Shown: one piece after another, positions 48,168-57,313 of the stretch
Numbering within the stretch: position 1 is the first letter of the stretch
Layout of the letters: every line of letters starts with the position of its first letter
Assembly (NCBI GenBank): GCA_003222085.1
Contig: QHUK01000019.1
Span: 1 to 64,000 of the forward strand
Source: Gemmatimonadota bacterium
GTDB lineage: Bacteria; Gemmatimonadota; Gemmatimonadetes; Gemmatimonadales; GWC2-71-9
Direction of reading: 5' to 3'
Length of the DNA stretch: 64,000 nt
Program-made: the position numbers and the translations under genes
The notes under the pieces: model-generated
Told to the model about the DNA's origin: nothing
Database searches by the model: none
What the model saw: only the letters and a program-made list of their open reading frames with translations

Positions 48168-49136
48168 CTATATCTCCCAATTCGAGAACAGCACGCCGTT
48201 GGCCGGATGGGGCTCCGAATACCCCTCGTACGTCATCCGCAGGTCGGTCCAGCGGACGCGATAGCCGCGGGCGACGAGCCGGCGGAAGGCGTCGTCGAAG
48301 CGGGTCTGGCAGCGCACGGCTACGCGGCGGATCCCGGCCCGGGCGGCGGCGGCTTCGGTCGCCGCGATCGCGGCATCGAAAGTGCGCGGGTCGCGCGCGG
48401 CGAGCTTAAGCACGCGGACCTCGTCCTTCGGCCGGCCATCGGCGAGCGGCGCGGAGTGCCACAGCACCAGGGCGTCCAGCCCGTCGTCCCCGTCGACGAG
48501 CGAGGTGTCGCCGAGGCCGAGCTCCGCGGTGAGCAGGATCTCGCGCGTAAAGTCGTAGCCCGGGGCGAGCGCGGCGACGAGGTCGCGCGCCGCCTCGAGC
48601 GTGGGGCCGCTCGCCGCGCTCTTGCGCTGCGACAACAGCACCGGGGCCTGATGCCCGCGCGTGACGATATCGTTGGTCAGCGTCACGGTGAGATGGCCGG
48701 GGAAGAAACCGAGCCGGGCATAGAACCCGATGTTCTCCACGGTCCGGGGCATGGTCTCGAGGCCCAGCGTCGCCACGTCCTGCTCGAGCAGCCAGTCGAG
48801 CGCGGTCCGCACGATCGTCTTCCCCACGCCCGCGCCCTGGCGATCGGGCCGCACGGCGAGGGGACCCATCCACCCCTCGGCGCCCGAGCGGTGGGCGATA
48901 TTGAAGGCGACGACATGCCCCGCCTCGTCGCGCCACAGCATGGCGCCCGGACCGGCGTCGAGCAGGGCGTAGCGCCACACCTGGGGATTGAGATGCGGCA
49001 CGCGCACGCCCACCAGCCCGTCGCGGCGGTACCGGTCGGTGAACGCGTCCGCGAAGACGCGGTTCAGTCCCTCGGTGTCGCGCTCGGCCGCGGGCTCGGG
49101 CCCGTAGACCTGGCGCTCAGGCAGCCACGCCCGCAT
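48168..49136 (-). CDS. GNAT family N-acetyltransferase
   Basis: A 322-aa protein. The N-terminal GNAT domain (residues 1-150) has the acetyl-CoA loop region WMGPLAVRPDRQGAGVGKTIVRTALDWLLEQ with Q/RxxGxG/A and the following TLGLETMPRTVENIGFYARLGFFPGHL. The C-terminal part (to residue 322) is a second, degenerate GNAT-like half. The acceptor is unknown. It overlaps the sbcC end by 20 nt and is the most downstream gene of the ubiG-to-sbcC row. Confidence 0.85.
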   Translation of the reverse strand: MRAWLPERQVYGPEPAAERDTEGLNRVFADAFTDRYRRDGLVGVRVPHLNPQVWRYALLDAGPGAMLWRDEAGHVVAFNIAHRSGAEGWMGPLAVRPDRQGAGVGKTIVRTALDWLLEQDVATLGLETMPRTVENIGFYARLGFFPGHLTVTLTNDIVTRGHQAPVLLSQRKSAASGPTLEAARDLVAALAPGYDFTREILLTAELGLGDTSLVDGDDGLDALVLWHSAPLADGRPKDEVRVLKLAARDPRTFDAAIAATEAAAARAGIRRVAVRCQTRFDDAFRRLVARGYRVRWTDLRMTYEGYSEPHPANGVLFSNWEI

Positions 49137-51546
49137 CGGCGGCTCCCAGGGTGGCGGTGTCGTCCCGGACGACGCTCGCGCCGCGCGCCGGGTCGAAGTC
49201 CACGCGGATCACGCGATCGAGACCCTCTCGCACCTGCTCAATGTGCGTAATCAGGATGACCTGGGGGAAGCGGTCGGCCAGCCGGCGCAGCAGGCCGACG
49301 ACGTGCAGGCGCCGGGTCTCGTCGAGCGAGCCGAAGATCTCGTCGAGCACGAGCAACGACAGCGGCTGACCCGCCCGCTCGGCGATCATCTGCGAGATCG
49401 CGAGCCGCAGCACGAGACTCGCGATGTCCTCCTCGCCGCCCGAGATGACGGGCTTCGCGATCCCGCCTTCGAGGATCGTGAGCGTGTAGTCCTCCGTCAG
49501 CTCGAGCTCGTCGTAGCGGCCGTCGGTGAGATCCGAGAGGAAACCGGAGGCGAGCTCGGCAATGTCGGGGCGCATGCGCGCGTTCAGCTCGCCCCGGAGG
49601 TCCGAGAACGCCCGGTCCAGCTCGTTGTGGAGGCGCTGGCGCGCCCGCAGCGCCGCGATCTGGCGCTCCCGCTGCGCCCGCTCGGCTTCCCGGCGCTTCG
49701 CCGCCGCGACGTCTTCTTCGGCGCGGCTCAGCTCGCCGCGGGCCTCGACCACCGCGAGCTCGGCCTCGCGGAGCGCACCCACGGCCCGATCGTAGCGATC
49801 CTTGGCCTGCCGGTACTCGGCATCCGAGAAGCCCTCCGCGCGGACCGCCTCCGTGAGCTCCCGCACCCGGCGCTCGCCGACCGAGAGCTGGTGCTCGGCC
49901 TGCTCGGCCTCCTGTACCAGCCGCTCCGCGCGCCGGGCGCGCTCTTCGAGCGCGGCGGCCTCGAGCGCCACCGGCTCCAGTTTTGCGAGCTCGGCCCGCA
50001 GCGCGTCGTGTCGCGTCGCGTCGTACCCGGCGGGCCGCGCGGTGAGCCGGCGCTCGAGGTCGCCCGCCCGCCGCCGCGCGCCCCCGAGCTCCGCGCTCGC
50101 GCGATCGCGCTCTTCAGCCTGCGCCCGCAGCTCTCCGGCCCGCGCACTGGCGCGACGGCTCTCCTCGAGCACCCGGTCCCGCTCGGCTTCGGCATCGAGC
50201 AGCTTGGCGGGTGGCTGGGCGAGCTGCTCGAGCCGCTGCCGGAAATACTTCCCGTCTCCCGTGATCACCTCGAGCTGAGCATCGAGCAGCGCGAGCACAC
50301 CCGCGTATTCCGGCCCGAGCGGACGCTTGCAGGTGGGACACGTCCCCTCCGGGCCCAGCGTCACGATCTGGTCGCGCTGCTCTTTGACCTCTTCGTACAG
50401 CTTGAGCAGCTCCGTGCGCTTCGTCTCGGCATACTGCCGGTCCCGCACCCACGCGGTGCGCTCCTCCTTCGCGGCCCCCTCGACCGCCTCGAGCCGCTCC
50501 TGCAGTCCCCGCGCCGCCGCGTCCGCCCGGACGACGGCCTCCGGCACGTCGCCGAGCTCGGTGAGCCGACGCTCGAGCATCCGTATGTTGCGGGCCAGCT
50601 CGGCCAACTGCGCCTCTTCCGTGCGCCGCGCCGCCGTCTCCCGCTGCAGTCGCTCGAGCGCCGCGACTTCCTCCTTCAAGCGCGCCACCGGGGCGAGCTC
50701 GGCGGCGAGCAGGCGGAGCTGCTCCCGGGCGCCGAGCGCGTTGGCGAGCTCCTTGTCGAGCCGCTGGAAGTCCTGGCGTGACGCCACCACGGCCTGCTCC
50801 GCCATGCGCCGCTCGCCGTCGAGCGACAGCGTGCGCTCGCGGCGGGCCATCCACTCGTTCCAGCGCGGCTCCTCGCGACCCAACGCGGCCTCCGCGGCGC
50901 GGCGCGCGGCGTCCACACGCTTCGCCGACCTCCGCGCCTCCGTCAGCCGCTGCTCGGCCGCCTGCCGCGCCCCGGCGAGCGCGGCGCCGTCGGGAAGGCC
51001 CGCCTCGAGACCTCGCACCTCCGCGGCCACCGCGTTGCGCACTTCGCGCACCCGCTCCTGCGCCTCGCGCAAGCGCTCGTAGCCGAGCACCCGCGACAGG
51101 AACCCCGCGCGCTCGGTCTTGCCGAGCGCCGCCATCACCGCCAACTCCTTTTGGCCCGTGAAGTAGGTGTTGAAGAACTCGTCGTGGGTCATCCCCAGCG
51201 TGCGCTCGAGCTTGTCGGTGACCGCCTTGAGGGAATTCGCGATCACCTGGCCGTCCTGGTGCAGCGCCGCGGTGGACAGCCCGCGCGTCACGCGGTACTC
51301 ATGGGCGCCGAGCCGGAACTCGAGTTCCACGTCGACGCCCGCCCGGCCCTTGGCGCCCAGCCGCCGGATCGAGTCCTTGTCTCCACGCACCGCCTGCGCG
51401 CCGTACAGCGCCCAGGCGATCGCCTCGAGGATGGTCGTCTTGCCGGAGCCGTTGGGCCCGATGATCCCCATGATCCCCGGCCCGAACTCGAGCTCGGTAT
51501 CGGCGTGCTGCCGAAAGTTCACGAGGCGGAGCCGCAGCAGCTGCAT
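49117..51546 (-). CDS. sbcC: SbcC/Rad50-type ATPase
   Basis: An 809-aa SMC-like ATPase, partner of the SbcD nuclease in DNA-end processing. Walker A is IGPNGSGKTTILEAIAWALYG (about residues 32-50). A long coiled coil is broken by the zinc hook CPTCKRPLG at about residues 402-408. The C-terminal head has SGGEEDIASLVLRLAISQMIAER (signature) and LLVLDEIFGSLDE (Walker B). The length is closer to archaeal Rad50 than to E. coli SbcC. The ATG shares its A with the sbcD stop (TGATG). Confidence 0.95.
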   Translation of the reverse strand: MQLLRLRLVNFRQHADTELEFGPGIMGIIGPNGSGKTTILEAIAWALYGAQAVRGDKDSIRRLGAKGRAGVDVELEFRLGAHEYRVTRGLSTAALHQDGQVIANSLKAVTDKLERTLGMTHDEFFNTYFTGQKELAVMAALGKTERAGFLSRVLGYERLREAQERVREVRNAVAAEVRGLEAGLPDGAALAGARQAAEQRLTEARRSAKRVDAARRAAEAALGREEPRWNEWMARRERTLSLDGERRMAEQAVVASRQDFQRLDKELANALGAREQLRLLAAELAPVARLKEEVAALERLQRETAARRTEEAQLAELARNIRMLERRLTELGDVPEAVVRADAAARGLQERLEAVEGAAKEERTAWVRDRQYAETKRTELLKLYEEVKEQRDQIVTLGPEGTCPTCKRPLGPEYAGVLALLDAQLEVITGDGKYFRQRLEQLAQPPAKLLDAEAERDRVLEESRRASARAGELRAQAEERDRASAELGGARRRAGDLERRLTARPAGYDATRHDALRAELAKLEPVALEAAALEERARRAERLVQEAEQAEHQLSVGERRVRELTEAVRAEGFSDAEYRQAKDRYDRAVGALREAELAVVEARGELSRAEEDVAAAKRREAERAQRERQIAALRARQRLHNELDRAFSDLRGELNARMRPDIAELASGFLSDLTDGRYDELELTEDYTLTILEGGIAKPVISGGEEDIASLVLRLAISQMIAERAGQPLSLLVLDEIFGSLDETRRLHVVGLLRRLADRFPQVILITHIEQVREGLDRVIRVDFDPARGASVVRDDTATLGAADAGVAA

Positions 51547-52730
51547 CAGGCCCCTCCCTCTCCCTCGCCCTCTTGACCCACCTGCGCGACGTACTCGACG
51601 CCGAGCCGGACGAACTCCGCGCGGTCCAAATCGGCGTCGAGCGGCCGGTGCTCGAGAAACTCCCGGACCGTCTCGGGGAGCGTCTGTCGGCGGCCGGGCG
51701 CGCCCGACGCCTCCACGCGGTGGACCTCGGGCCGGCGCAGGTCGAGCTGGAAGTGGAGCGCCCGGGCCTTGTAGGCGCGGATCGCGGCGTGATCCAGGTC
51801 CCGGGCGGTGGCCCGCGACACATCGAACACCAGCTGCCGGACGATCTGATCATCGATCGCCGGCTTCGCACCGGCGACGGCGGCGGCGATCCGCTCATCC
51901 AGCTCCTTGGGCGTCAGACCCTTGCCCTCGATCGGCGGGAGCTCGACGTGACGCCGCACCGGGGAGATCGACCGGAACGTTACCCGCGAACCCGGGAGCT
52001 CGGCGACGAGGTACCCCTTCCCGGCGCGCCCGCCGTCCTGCTCGTCTTGCAGCTGGCCCCAGGGGTTGGGACTGATGTACTCGAGGCTGCCCGCGTACCA
52101 GACGTTGGGCTCGACCTGGTGCGCGACGTGATAATGCCCGAGCGCGACGTAATCCCACTGCGCCGGCGCGAGCGTCTCTCGCGTCACCAGCGCGCCCCCG
52201 TATTCCATCGTGCCGCGCTCCTCGCCGAGGCCAGGAAGCTGTCCGTGCGTCGCCAGGACGTTGAACCGGGTGCCGCGCTCGGGGCGCAAGGCGGGCCGGT
52301 CGTCCCCAATGAGTGCCTGGTGGGGAACGGCGAGCACGGAGCAATCGAGCCGGGAGAACACGATGCGGCGCGGCTGCTCGACGGCGATCTCAACCCCGAG
52401 CGCCTCGTACAGGCGGAGAATGGTGCCCGTCTCGGTGGAGCGGGGAGTATCGTGGTTGCCCGCGACGACGACGATGGGCGCGTCGGGCAGCCCCACCCGC
52501 AGGCGCTGGAGCTCACGGAAGCAGAATAGGATCGCGGCATTGGTGGGCCGGACGGAGTGGAAGATGTCGCCTACGAGGAGGATCAGGTCCGGGCGTTGAG
52601 CCAACACGTCGTCCACCGCCCGGCGGAACGCTTCGGCGACGTCGGCCTCGCGCTGATTCCCTCCCCGTGGCGTCTGTCGGTCGTACTGGCGGAAGCCGAG
52701 GTGCAGGTCGGCGAGGTGCGCGAGCTTCAC
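51546..52730 (-). CDS. sbcD: SbcD/Mre11-type exonuclease subunit
   Basis: A 394-aa metallophosphoesterase nuclease. Metal-binding motifs appear in order: LADLHLGF, LVGDIFHSVRPTN, VVAGNHDTPRST, NVLATHGQLPG and YVALGHYHVAHQ. The C-terminal part (DQIVRQLVFDVSRATARDLDHAAIRAYKARALHF) is the capping and SbcC-binding region. It forms the Mre11-Rad50-like complex that trims DNA ends and hairpins. A GTG start lies 4 nt after the upstream lipoprotein gene stop. Confidence 0.95.
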   Translation of the reverse strand: MKLAHLADLHLGFRQYDRQTPRGGNQREADVAEAFRRAVDDVLAQRPDLILLVGDIFHSVRPTNAAILFCFRELQRLRVGLPDAPIVVVAGNHDTPRSTETGTILRLYEALGVEIAVEQPRRIVFSRLDCSVLAVPHQALIGDDRPALRPERGTRFNVLATHGQLPGLGEERGTMEYGGALVTRETLAPAQWDYVALGHYHVAHQVEPNVWYAGSLEYISPNPWGQLQDEQDGGRAGKGYLVAELPGSRVTFRSISPVRRHVELPPIEGKGLTPKELDERIAAAVAGAKPAIDDQIVRQLVFDVSRATARDLDHAAIRAYKARALHFQLDLRRPEVHRVEASGAPGRRQTLPETVREFLEHRPLDADLDRAEFVRLGVEYVAQVGQEGEGEGGA

Positions 52731-52734
52731 CGTG

Positions 52735-53613
52735 TCACTTGGCCTCGGTGAGCTGGAGCGAGGTCTGCTGCGTCATGGCCATCGTCATCTCGGGTTGACC
52801 GGTGGTCCCGGTCTTCATGGTGATCGTCCCGCCCATCATCGCGCGCACCTGCGCACTCCGCTGGAGCGAATACAACTGCTCTCCCGAGAGGTTGCCGGAG
52901 AGCCGCAGCGTGCCGGTCTGCTGCGCCCCGCCCTCGCCTCGCTGCATGAGCGTGATCGGGGCCTCCGGAAAGCTCGTCTCGATGCCGAGCAGCACGGAGG
53001 TGTCCGCGCCGGCTATTTGGATCTCCCTGACGGTAATCTTGGTGCGCGACTTCAGCGGACCGCTCGCGTTCAGCGCTTGGTGGCCGAGCGGCAGCTCGTG
53101 CTCCGCCACCCAGGAGTCGCCGACGCCCACCGGCCCCTCGGGCAACGGGAACGCCATCGATTTCATGCTGCTCCCCAGTTGCTCCGTCACCGGAGACGGG
53201 GCGCCGGTGAGCCCGGTAAAGGCGGCGCTGAGCACGTGCATGCGATCGTCGTAGACGACGTCGCTCCTCATCCCGCGCATCCGGTCGAGCGCCGGACGCA
53301 TGGCGCCCGGACCCATCCCTGGGGCGTCGAGCGACGTGGAATCGAAGGTCACCGTCACGGCCACCCCACCCTGTGCGGGGCCCTTCACGACCTGGGTGTA
53401 ATACATGCGCATCCTGAAGGTCTGCTCGGGCAGGGCGCTCATCGGTCCACCCACGATCCGCATCGCGTTCTGCTGATCGAGCGAGTAGTGGTAGGCCGCA
53501 CCCGTCGGGGGGTGGTAGCGCAGGGTGATCTTGGCTCCGCTCGCCCCACCACGGCAGGCGCCGATCGTGACGAGCACCGTCGCGGCGCGGGCGAGTGAAC
53601 GGGGAGCGACCAT
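52735..53613 (-). CDS. Predicted lipoprotein of unknown function
   Basis: A 292-aa protein. LARAATVLVTIGACRGG gives a lipoprotein signal (lipobox TIGAC). The mature domain is beta-rich with YHPPTGAAYHYSLDQQNAM at the start and repeated polar strands, like small exported DUF6263-type proteins. It has no visible link to DNA repair, although it sits inside the herA-sbcD row with 4 nt to sbcD and 18 nt to herA. Confidence 0.7.
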   Translation of the reverse strand: MVAPRSLARAATVLVTIGACRGGASGAKITLRYHPPTGAAYHYSLDQQNAMRIVGGPMSALPEQTFRMRMYYTQVVKGPAQGGVAVTVTFDSTSLDAPGMGPGAMRPALDRMRGMRSDVVYDDRMHVLSAAFTGLTGAPSPVTEQLGSSMKSMAFPLPEGPVGVGDSWVAEHELPLGHQALNASGPLKSRTKITVREIQIAGADTSVLLGIETSFPEAPITLMQRGEGGAQQTGTLRLSGNLSGEQLYSLQRSAQVRAMMGGTITMKTGTTGQPEMTMAMTQQTSLQLTEAK

Positions 53614-53631
53614 TCGGGGACTCCTATCGTC

Positions 53632-55590
53632 TCAGTACGGTTCGTCGGAGATCCGATTGAGCGGCGCCACGCTCTCGCGCGCGGCGGCCGGGACGGCGGC
53701 GACGCGACCGCCCAGATGCTTCTTGAAGTGGGCGAACGCATCCTGGGGCCGGGCCTGGCGGGTGTGTGCGAGGGCGCGGCGCACGTCCTCCTCCCGCCGG
53801 TCGGCGATGAGATCCTTCACCTGGTTCGGCCGCACCCGCCGGTCGAGCTTCACGAGCTGCCGCACCACGGCGTCCTCGAACGGCAGGTCCGCCGCGGGCG
53901 GGAACCGCTCCACGCCGTCCCGGCCGCGCAGCACTCCCGGCCGCGGGAAGCGCACGAAGATGGGTTGCGTGAAGTGCGGGTGACGCACCATCAGCTCGCC
54001 GATGGGGAGCGTGGCGAGCTTGATTTTGGTGGCGGGCGAGAGCACCTGGTACCCGGGCGTCGCGAGCTCATCCGAATCCATCCGGCCGAAGACGATCGTT
54101 CCCGCGTTCCCCACCACCCGCCGGTGCACCTGGGAGCGGAATTGCTCGGCGCCAAACAGCACCAGGCCAAGGTAACGCCCGCGCTCCGAGATATCGAGCA
54201 GCATTTTCTTCACGTACGTGTCCGGGCCGTCGCCGGGAGCGTACTTGTTCAGCTCGTCGACGAACACGACGACGGCGTCGACGCCCAAGTCGCGACGCTC
54301 CAGGTGCTCGCGCAGCTTCGACACGGCGCGGGCGAACACCAGATCCTGCCCGAGCGGATCGACGTTCGCCACGTCGACCACGTAGACGGCGCGATCCTCG
54401 AACCGGCCCCACGGCAGATCGCTCGACGGGCCGTCATCGGTCACCAGGCCCTTGCAGCGCGTGGAGATGTTCGACAAGCGATTGCGCACCTTGCGGATCG
54501 TCGCGATGTGGTGCGTCCGCCAGGTGTCCCCGCGCCCGGCGAGCTCCAAGCCGTCAAAGATCGACCGGAACAGGCGCTCCAGGTCGGCGAAGGTGACCAC
54601 GCGATGGGCCCCGCCGAACCCGTCGTCGAACTCCTTGTCCACGACCCGATCCGCGAGGAAATCGATGAAGGCGTCCGCTTTGGCATCGATGTCGTCGCGG
54701 TTGAGCAGGACCTCGGCGTAGTCGAGCACCTCGCGCAGCCCCCAGACGAGCGGTTCCACGTCGCCGACCAGATCGGGGTGCGTGCGCAGCGTGTTCAGGT
54801 TCACCCCGTCCGCCTTGAAGGGGGCGTAGTAGCGCACTCGCTCGAACGGCTGCGCCTGGACGGCGAGCCGCTCGTAGCGACGGCGGTCTTCGTCCTCGAG
54901 GGCGCCGGGCTGGTCGAGGAAGCACAGGTCCGGACCCTTCACGTTGAAGCACACCGCGGCGACCCGCCCCTTGTGGGGCGGGAAGTGCTGGAAGATGGAC
55001 GCCAGCAGGAACTCCACCGCGCTCGTCTTGGTGGCGAGCCCCGAGACACCGGAGATGTTCAAGTGCGCCGCTTCCGGTCCGAGGAGGAAATCGGCATCGA
55101 GGTACACCGGCGCCTCGAGCCCGCCCGACGTGTAGAGGCCGACGGGAATCGCCGTGGGCTGTTCCCCCCCGAGATACGCGTCCATGCGCAGCGCCTGCGC
55201 CACGTCGACGTCGCTGGCGACGTGCACCGCCCCGAGCGGGACGGGCTGCAACGGCTCCTCGGGCCGTTGACGCAGTACCGCCGCCGTCCAGAGGCGGATT
55301 TCCTGGCGTACCGTCGGGTGCTCCGCGGCACGCGCCGGATCTCCCTCCGCGCCGACCACGTCGTGCAGCGGCGTCGCCAAGTCGGAGTAAGCGAACCCGT
55401 CGGTGACCACACCGTATACGACCCGCCCCGAATCCCCAGCGCCGAACCCCTCGACCCTGACGATCGCCCCGATCCCGATGCTCGTCTCGTTCGCGGTCCA
55501 GAAGTGGAATTGGTGGGGCGTCGCCGGCTTCTGCTCCGTCGCGACGACGCGACCGATGGGGGGAGGCTGAAACGAGGCCTTGTCGATCAC
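53632..55590 (-). CDS. herA: HerA-family (DUF87) ATPase
   Basis: A 652-aa ATPase of the HerA/FtsK superfamily. An N-terminal HAS-barrel-like domain (residues 1-110: GRVVATEQKPATPHQFHFW, VYGVVTDGFAYSDLATP) precedes the ATPase core. The P-loop region reads NISGVSGLATKTSAVEFLL (about residues 175-195), differing from the usual GxTGSGKS by one residue spacing and lacking the final Gly. Walker B is AVVVFVDELNKYAP, and a sensor region GNAGTIVFGRMDSDEL follows. HerA forms a hexameric DNA pump that works with NurA. The GTG start overlaps the nurA stop. Confidence 0.85.
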   Translation of the reverse strand: MIDKASFQPPPIGRVVATEQKPATPHQFHFWTANETSIGIGAIVRVEGFGAGDSGRVVYGVVTDGFAYSDLATPLHDVVGAEGDPARAAEHPTVRQEIRLWTAAVLRQRPEEPLQPVPLGAVHVASDVDVAQALRMDAYLGGEQPTAIPVGLYTSGGLEAPVYLDADFLLGPEAAHLNISGVSGLATKTSAVEFLLASIFQHFPPHKGRVAAVCFNVKGPDLCFLDQPGALEDEDRRRYERLAVQAQPFERVRYYAPFKADGVNLNTLRTHPDLVGDVEPLVWGLREVLDYAEVLLNRDDIDAKADAFIDFLADRVVDKEFDDGFGGAHRVVTFADLERLFRSIFDGLELAGRGDTWRTHHIATIRKVRNRLSNISTRCKGLVTDDGPSSDLPWGRFEDRAVYVVDVANVDPLGQDLVFARAVSKLREHLERRDLGVDAVVVFVDELNKYAPGDGPDTYVKKMLLDISERGRYLGLVLFGAEQFRSQVHRRVVGNAGTIVFGRMDSDELATPGYQVLSPATKIKLATLPIGELMVRHPHFTQPIFVRFPRPGVLRGRDGVERFPPAADLPFEDAVVRQLVKLDRRVRPNQVKDLIADRREEDVRRALAHTRQARPQDAFAHFKKHLGGRVAAVPAAARESVAPLNRISDEPY

Positions 55591-56576
55591 GTCCCGGTTC
55601 TCGGGAGCCGGGAGCCGGGAGCGGGGAGCAAGTCGCGCGGCGCGCGCGCTCTCAAGTAGGACTCCACGTCATAGATAGGGTAAAGTAACCGATCCCACCG
55701 GCGGTCGGGGGTCGCGAGCGGAGCGCGCTCGCCCACGAGCCACGCCGAGATTCGGGGCGCGAGCGCGACGGTGCCTGGATGAGCGCGCGCCTCCACCCGG
55801 AGCAGCCCGTACAGCAGGTCGTTTCCCTCCCAGGGCCACAGCCGCAGATACCAGGAATAAATCTCGCGGCGCGCGCCGCGGCGCTTCGGCCGGAACACGC
55901 TGGTGCGGTGCAGCACGGGCAGGGTGAGCGCGCGCTCGAGCTCCGGGCCCTCGAAGTACTCGGCCCCGTGACTCTTGACGACGCCCACCGCGCGCGGGTG
56001 CGCGGACAGTGCGGGGGAATCGGAGAGCACCCCGTCTACGACGAGCCATTCGTCGGAGCCGAGCCTCGCGAGCCGCCGCTCCGCGAGCCGCCGCTCGAGC
56101 GCGGCGCGGGCTTTCTGCACCTCAAGTCGCGCGGCCGGCAGGGCGCGGGCAGGCTGGCCGGCGTCATCGGCGGGGATCTCGACGACCCGGACCCCCGTTC
56201 CCGCGAGCGCCCCGCGCACCGCGTCCGGCAGGCGGTCGAGCCGGGTGATGGCGAGCTCGTCCGCGTTCTCGGCAACCGTGCGCAGGCGGCGATCGCCCTC
56301 CCGGAGGCGGATCGCGGCGGCGACGTGCGCCCGCACGATGGGCGTAACCCCCGCGTACCCCACGACCCGCCACTGCTCGATACCGTCGAGAAAGCCGACC
56401 GACGGGGGCGCGAGCGCGGGCGCGCCGACCAGCGAGCGCACCCGGAGCTCCGGATCCTCGACCGGGTCGGCCCCGGTGAACTCCTCGAGATCGACGCGCC
56501 CGACGCTCGCTTCGGGGACGTGAGAGGCCGGCACCACCCCCGCCGCGAGGATCGCGTCGACCCAGGAGCGCGACAC
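55587..56576 (-). CDS. nurA: NurA-family nuclease
   Basis: A 329-aa NurA-type nuclease. Motifs with the family spacing are VGFLDGIEQWRVVGYAG (first acidic site), EWLVVDGVLSDSPAL (second acidic site), RAVGVVKSHGAEYFEG (conserved Lys) and LLYPIYDVESYLRAR (C-terminal YP motif). NurA is a 5'-3' nuclease of the HerA-NurA resection machine, well known in archaea. The C-terminal residues LLPAPGSRLPRTGT are encoded by a gggagcc heptad run and are probably not family sequence. It lies 2 nt after ubiG. Confidence 0.82.
   Translation of the reverse strand: MSRSWVDAILAAGVVPASHVPEASVGRVDLEEFTGADPVEDPELRVRSLVGAPALAPPSVGFLDGIEQWRVVGYAGVTPIVRAHVAAAIRLREGDRRLRTVAENADELAITRLDRLPDAVRGALAGTGVRVVEIPADDAGQPARALPAARLEVQKARAALERRLAERRLARLGSDEWLVVDGVLSDSPALSAHPRAVGVVKSHGAEYFEGPELERALTLPVLHRTSVFRPKRRGARREIYSWYLRLWPWEGNDLLYGLLRVEARAHPGTVALAPRISAWLVGERAPLATPDRRWDRLLYPIYDVESYLRARAPRDLLPAPGSRLPRTGT
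55603..55629. repeat. gggagcc heptad run F1 at the end of nurA
   Basis: Three to four tandem heptads of gggagcc type. One arm only. It forms the last codons of nurA, as repeat A4 does for deoA. Confidence 0.75.
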
Positions 56577-56578
56577 GG

Positions 56579-57313
56579 TCAGCGTGTCCGAAGCGCCCAG
56601 CCGAGGTAGGTCACGCGCAGATCGTCGGTGAGCACCCGCCGCCCGGTTCCGTCGCCCGCGCGCTCGACGCCTTTCATCTCCTGTACCACCATATCATGGC
56701 GGGCGAGCGCCTCGGTCAGCTGCGGGGGCGTGATGAAGCGCGCGAAGTCGTGGAACCCCTCGGGCATGGTGTGTTGCACGTACTCTTCGTCCCACACGAC
56801 CTGCAGGAAGCCGGCGATGGTGCGGTTGTGGGTGAGAACGCCGAGCCCGCCGCCGGGGGCGAGCACCCGGGCAATACCGGCGATCGTGCGCTCCAAGTCG
56901 TCGACGTGCTCCAGCACGTCGACGGCGAACACGAGGTCGAAGGTGCCCTCGAGGCCGGCGCCGCCCAGGTCCTCGGCCGTCCCGCGGCGGTAGTCGATGG
57001 TCACTCCCGAGCGCCGGGCGTGCTCGCGTGCCGCCGCGAGTGATTTCTCCGACGGGTCGATGCCGGTCACGGTCGCCCCCTCGGCGGCGAGTGTCTCGGC
57101 CAGGATGCCCCCACCACAGCCTACGTCGAGGACCCGCTTACCCCCGAACCCGCCGAACACGCGCCGGAAATATTCGACGCGCAGCGTGTTCAGCTCGTGG
57201 AGCCCGGCGAAGGGCCCGGCGTTGCTCCACCAGACGCCGGGGACCCGCTCCACCAGGCGCTCGTACTTCTCGGGCTCGGAAAGGCCGCCGAGGCGGGGGA
57301 GCTGGTCGGACAT
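56579..57313 (-). CDS. ubiG: UbiG/Coq3-type O-methyltransferase
   Basis: A 244-aa SAM-dependent methyltransferase. SAM motif I is VLDVGCGGGILAETLA (about residue 63), followed by GIDPSEKSLAAAREHA and FDLVFAVDVLEHVDD. The UbiG-specific features WWSNAGPFAGLHELNTLRVEYF and TITHN-like GLGVLTHNRTIAGFLQVV are visible. It methylates ubiquinone precursors at the O positions. No other ubi gene is in the window, so another acceptor remains possible. It leads the row that runs into nurA and herA. Confidence 0.88.
   Translation of the reverse strand: MSDQLPRLGGLSEPEKYERLVERVPGVWWSNAGPFAGLHELNTLRVEYFRRVFGGFGGKRVLDVGCGGGILAETLAAEGATVTGIDPSEKSLAAAREHARRSGVTIDYRRGTAEDLGGAGLEGTFDLVFAVDVLEHVDDLERTIAGIARVLAPGGGLGVLTHNRTIAGFLQVVWDEEYVQHTMPEGFHDFARFITPPQLTEALARHDMVVQEMKGVERAGDGTGRRVLTDDLRVTYLGWALRTR

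Follow-up and report, generated by a model that had tools for sequence, protein, structure and literature searches.

In Sulfolobus, Pyrococcus/Thermococcus and other archaea, the genes for NurA, HerA, Mre11 and Rad50 are classically clustered. The window analyzed here, a 64,000-nt stretch that is contig C62 of a Gemmatimonadota genome (3.54 Mb, 70 contigs, 93% complete), carries nurA, herA, sbcD and sbcC in one row, and a sequence-only reading of it had proposed an archaeal-style resection pathway working instead of, or beside, RecBCD/AddAB. What are the proteins of this row, how widely is the row kept, and what does it do in a bacterium? The five genes which that reading placed on the minus strand at 49117–56576, including a lipoprotein-like gene, are all confirmed as open reading frames (Table 1), as are the overlaps of 4 nt between nurA and herA and of 1 nt between sbcD and sbcC. 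The tight run extends beyond these five: a UbiG-like methyltransferase gene lies 2 nt before nurA, and the last 20 nt of sbcC are shared with a GNAT-family gene. From the methyltransferase gene to the GNAT gene every gap is 18 nt or less, an operon-like run as known from the ORF layout, and the GC content of the region resembles that of its surroundings.

Table 1. Genes of the nurA-herA-sbcD-sbcC row and its immediate neighbors in the window.
Gene	Position	Strand	Description
UbiG-like methyltransferase gene	56579..57313	-	directly upstream of nurA; TIGR01983, 172.9 bits
nurA	55587..56576	-	329 aa, GTG start; NurA-family nuclease, assigned by profile and fold
herA	53632..55590	-	652 aa; HerA-family ATPase of the Deinococcus type, assigned by profile and fold; hexameric translocase activity predicted
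lipoprotein-like gene	52735..53613	-	292 aa; between herA and sbcD
sbcD (Mre11 family)	51546..52730	-	394 aa
sbcC (Rad50 family)	49117..51546	-	809 aa; CPTC zinc hook
GNAT-family protein gene	48168..49136	-	322 aa; after sbcC; Acetyltransf_1 Pfam E = 9.9e-12

NurA is the least conspicuous of the four proteins. As a single sequence, it gives no match in Pfam, NCBIfam, PADLOC or PDB searches, and the Pfam NurA model (PF09376) matches 10 of 23 homologues, the window protein itself not among them. When searched against the PDB, however, a family profile made from the alignment of these 23 homologues finds NurA of Deinococcus radiodurans (7f6d_H) at E = 1.2e-31 and, less strongly, TM1739 of Thermotoga (E = 7.8e-16). 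Consistent with this, DrNurA and TM1739, with an RNase H-like fold, are the only hits below 1e-3 in a Foldseek search with the AlphaFold model (pLDDT 87.6), at a moderate TM-score of about 0.55. E161, D181, K201 and Y243 are invariant among the 23 homologues and D64 is found in at least 90% of them; we take D64, E161 and D181 to be the catalytic acidic residues, from what is known of archaeal NurA. Because profile and fold searches match where single-sequence searches failed, the identity of the protein as a NurA-family nuclease, on which the earlier proposal depended, is supported at the level of sequence and model, while its HerA-dependent 5′–3′ activity is a prediction.

HerA matches DrHerA (7f6d_B) at E = 1.1e-42 as a single sequence and at 2.4e-163 as a family profile, over its full length (profile positions 4–567), covering the HAS barrel and the RecA-like core. 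In Foldseek, DrHerA ranks first, followed by archaeal HerA and Sir2-HerA proteins. The P-loop is a variant Walker A, GVSGLATKTS, rather than the classic GxxxxGKS, and its ATKTS portion recurs in DrHerA; the Walker B is DELNKY. K188, T189, D445 and E446 are invariant in 24 homologues and correspond to K175/T176 and D487/E488 of DrHerA, of which K175/T176 contact the nucleotide and Mg (PMC9960219). The window protein also has a C-terminal extension, which is absent from the HerA type of families f5–f7 of the same class. It falls below the cut-offs of the Pfam HerA (PF01935) and HAS-barrel models; PF01935 fails to detect HerA in its own genome and overlooks the whole family. As judged from profile and fold, this HerA is of the Deinococcus, bacterial type, with a profile score of 548 bits for HerA of Deinococcus but 15.5 for an archaeal one (9x1l).

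Assignment of the remaining pair is more straightforward. SbcD matches the Metallophos Pfam (E = 5.6e-14) and, as a profile, E. coli SbcD (9.4e-42), and holds all of the phosphoesterase motifs, DxH, GD, GNHD, H and GHxH. In some relatives (L032, L044 and L069), the nearest one included, the first His of GHxH is replaced by Asp or Glu; it is His in the window. SbcC matches AAA_23/SMC_N in Pfam and E. coli SbcC as a profile (2.6e-75); invariant columns include C403 and C406 of the CPTC hook, the Walker A and the SGGE signature of a split ABC ATPase. Among solved structures, both are nearest to bacterial SbcCD/Mre11-Rad50 from E. coli and Thermotoga. Profile, motif and fold searches therefore agree on all four names given in the earlier reading. 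Its term "archaeal-style" holds for the gene content and fails for the proteins, since HerA and NurA are nearest to those of Deinococcus, and SbcCD to those of E. coli and Thermotoga, among solved structures; this placement outside archaeal clades comes from structure-database comparison.

The row is widely kept. HerA is found in 102 of 150 genomes sampled across the phylum and in 244 of 288 genomes of the order, or, counting those at least 90% complete, in 136 of 159 (85%). Of 41 loci of the phylum, 40 have sbcD and sbcC next to herA; nurA lies in the stretch in 38 and was not found there in three. Forty-seven further loci with enough flank, taken from a species-level genome collection that overlaps the first set in some genomes, gave sbcD and sbcC in 45, nurA in 43 and all four genes in 42. 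Within the order, the genes are single-copy and at a conserved site. In families f5–f7, whose HerA is about 30% identical to that of the window, the gene order is partly changed, several loci reading herA-sbcD-sbcC-nurA, and the four genes are still together. Trees of the four proteins within the phylum are largely congruent, with distance correlations of 0.85–0.98, which in part reflects shared descent. The unrelated histories and lack of co-occurrence that would have spoken against the earlier proposal are thus not what is seen.

There are more distant cases. The row occurs in three Armatimonadota loci (in one, nurA is off the contig), in Actinomycetota, in Chloroflexota and on a cyanobacterial plasmid; linked sbcCD is absent at a cyanobacterial MAG locus and at Gastranaerophilales and Chthonomonadia loci. 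All four genes are found on plasmid records of Streptomyces, Ca. Chlorohelix and Sphaerospermopsis, and on an 11.85-Mb Nonomuraea record filed under plasmids, where NurA and HerA either go by the names hypothetical protein or ATP-binding protein or lack an annotation. A Marinitoga phage has nurA-herA only. The retention of herA-sbcD-sbcC in 40 of 41 loci and of nurA in 38, and the reappearance of the set in further phyla and on plasmids, show that the row is not a chance arrangement. Beside the plasmid-borne rows of Chloroflexota and Streptomyces lie genes for ImmA/IrrE metallopeptidases (L195:6092-6826; L196:6141-7313), with TIR/HEPN or Wadjet-like (TIGR02680/TIGR02678/DUF2397) genes nearby, neighbors that suggest a context of damage control or defense.

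Other members of the run are less constant. Linkage of the methyltransferase gene is limited to the closest relatives (ubiG profile matches in 3 of 41 loci). The lipoprotein-like protein, with a Cys after a hydrophobic signal (VTIGAC) as read from its sequence, gave no confident family in the Pfam search; its gene is found in some relatives only, a part of the order, and in some genomes without herA-nurA it remains with sbcD, with no evident link to DNA repair. Of the 47 further loci, 43 have the GNAT gene, and most sites that lack herA-nurA retain it together with sbcCD; its product is a possible partner of SbcCD.

What else could process DNA ends in this cell? A genome-wide search of the host (93% complete) found no RecBCD, AddAB or AdnAB, in line with the earlier reading, with no PDDEXK_1 (PF12705) match and no RecB (TIGR00609) at E ≤ 1e-100. 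There are only two UvrD-type helicases. One is a PcrA/UvrD; the other, a 987-aa UvrD encoded on contig C20 (L184:2512-5475), carries a DnaQ/RNase T exonuclease domain as an insert and is possibly a single-chain helicase-nuclease. The genome does encode RecQ, RecO and, with two matches, RecJ, so that the row stands beside a RecJ/RecQ-RecFOR route and would replace RecBCD/AddAB only. Both RecJ matches are full-length (G000:C56:15877-17481 and G000:C50:26156-27760), and nearly all relatives have one; the second may be a paralogue, a strain duplicate or contamination. Of the alternatives "instead of" and "beside" RecBCD/AddAB, the former thus fits the host genome, while AddAB-like pairs, strong PDDEXK_1 matches in frames of about 1000 aa, coexist with the row in families f5–f7. 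In family f1, 34 of 36 genomes resemble the host in lacking a strong PDDEXK_1 match. Across the phylum, PDDEXK_1 contrasts strongly with HerA; the difference lies between families and no contrast is seen within the order at strict cut-offs, and it was set aside as evidence of replacement. One of the weak PDDEXK_1 matches is a Cas4-Cas1 fusion (G013), and such matches were therefore left out when AddAB was scored.

NurA is found in none of 48 HerA-less genomes of the phylum, while row-type SbcD is retained in all nine HerA-less genomes of the order tested. At such sites, the upstream aminotransferase gene and, downstream, sbcC and usually the GNAT gene are as in HerA-bearing relatives, and nurA-herA is gone from between them. 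RecB is found in 17 of 44 HerA-less against 28 of 244 HerA-bearing genomes of the whole order, and in 13 of 23 against 16 of 136 when genomes at least 90% complete are counted (Fisher p = 6e-6, from counts that are not phylogenetically independent). The HerA-less genomes with RecB fall in four genera (g25, g45, g101 and g23), of which g25 and g45 dominate the contrast; besides the genomes having both HerA and RecB, some have neither. Genes for RecC and RecD beside that for RecB were confirmed in one HerA-less (G055) and one HerA-bearing (G039) genome. The HerA-NurA pair thus appears to be one unit that can be dispensed with more often in genomes having RecBCD. As SbcCD survives without the pair, it does not depend on it and presumably has a use of its own.

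Probably, the row encodes a putative two-part DNA-end-processing machine that substitutes for RecBCD/AddAB in this lineage. SbcCD would recognize and trim or nick blocked or hairpin ends. By analogy with Deinococcus and archaea, a HerA hexamer would then pump the duplex into a NurA dimer, and NurA would degrade it with removal of the 5′-strand, leaving 3′ single-stranded DNA on which RecFOR would load RecA. Threading of duplex DNA by the HerA hexamer into the NurA dimer has been described (PMC9960219; PMC12977600), and D. radiodurans, in which NurA-HerA has been studied, is without RecBCD/AddAB (PMC9960219; PMC4663267). Whether HerA-NurA makes recombinogenic 3′ tails or plainly destroys DNA is disputed, a 2026 study of the Thermococcus proteins arguing against end resection (PMC12977600).

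HerA-NurA could indeed be mainly a shredder of double-stranded DNA that acts in defense or clears away foreign or broken DNA. SbcCD would then open protected ends, and repair would be secondary. The Thermococcus enzyme cuts both strands and was proposed in the same study to be antiviral (PMC12977600), related HerA ATPases among the structural neighbors act in Sir2/DUF4297 defense, and the plasmid cassettes of Streptomyces and Chlorohelix lie beside ImmA/IrrE and Wadjet-like or TIR/HEPN genes. The single copy, conserved site, congruent trees and presence in 85% of genomes in the order are, however, unlike the patchy occurrence of defense genes; PADLOC gives no match for NurA and a weak one for HerA, and no Sir2 or DUF4297 partner gene lies beside herA in the window, its neighbors being nurA and, past the lipoprotein-like gene, sbcD. 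A mainly destructive role is therefore fairly unlikely. RecBCD itself both repairs breaks and destroys foreign DNA, so that shredding and end processing are only partly exclusive.

Or the two pairs may be co-transcribed and act separately, HerA-NurA in processing breaks and SbcCD in cleaving hairpins or cruciforms. This would fit the SbcD kept in HerA-less genomes, and in Thermus nurA-herA is apart from sbcCD (PMC5448004). Since the adjacency recurs in distant phyla and survives local reordering, and since Mre11 of Sulfolobus acidocaldarius is reported to interact with HerA (PMC2288612), separate action is quite unlikely. Recent transfer of the row as a unit from archaea is suggested by the match of its four genes to those of thermophilic archaea; it was rejected on the HerA profile scores given above and is highly improbable, with SbcCD nearest to bacterial proteins, the row present order-wide with congruent trees, and its GC content like that of its surroundings.

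The end-processing machine proposed here may have a wider meaning. Tentatively, NurA-HerA-SbcCD might be a third general bacterial end-processing system, evolutionarily exchangeable with RecBCD and AddAB, present in at least six phyla and spread by plasmids, which would have escaped notice since its proteins receive from standard models only the names "ATP-binding protein" and "hypothetical protein". Recent papers treat bacterial HerA-NurA as a peculiarity of Deinococcus-Thermus (PMC12977600). In the order studied here, it appears as a near-core module invisible to annotation, encoded adjoining SbcCD and absent chiefly where RecBCD occurs. The row thus bears on the dispute over resection and destruction, and it offers other bacteria for testing. 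In the open-access literature, we found no description of the order-wide row, its carriage by plasmids or the contrast with RecBCD, while the archaeal cluster, Deinococcus NurA-HerA and one bacterial precedent, Oceanithermus, are already known.

Compared with RecBCD/AddAB, which is not found in the host genome, the proposed role, preparing broken ends for RecA, is alike and the proteins are unrelated. The archaeal cluster encodes the same four protein families together; the window row differs in having proteins of bacterial types and genes for a lipoprotein-like and a GNAT-family protein in the run, in a cell that also has RecJ, RecQ and RecO. NurA-HerA of D. radiodurans (7f6d and 7wrw) is the closest among solved structures for both proteins, with the same ATKTS Walker A and a host likewise without RecBCD/AddAB; to our knowledge, sbcCD is not in one row with nurA-herA in Deinococcus. 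The nearest precedent is Oceanithermus profundus, in which sbcD-sbcC were noted downstream of nurA-hepA (Blesa et al., 2017; PMC5448004). Its gene order is the same as in the window and it is a bacterium as well, but it is one organism, read as a later recruitment of sbcDC (PMC5448004), whereas the row of the window is order-wide, extends to other phyla and is also carried by plasmids.
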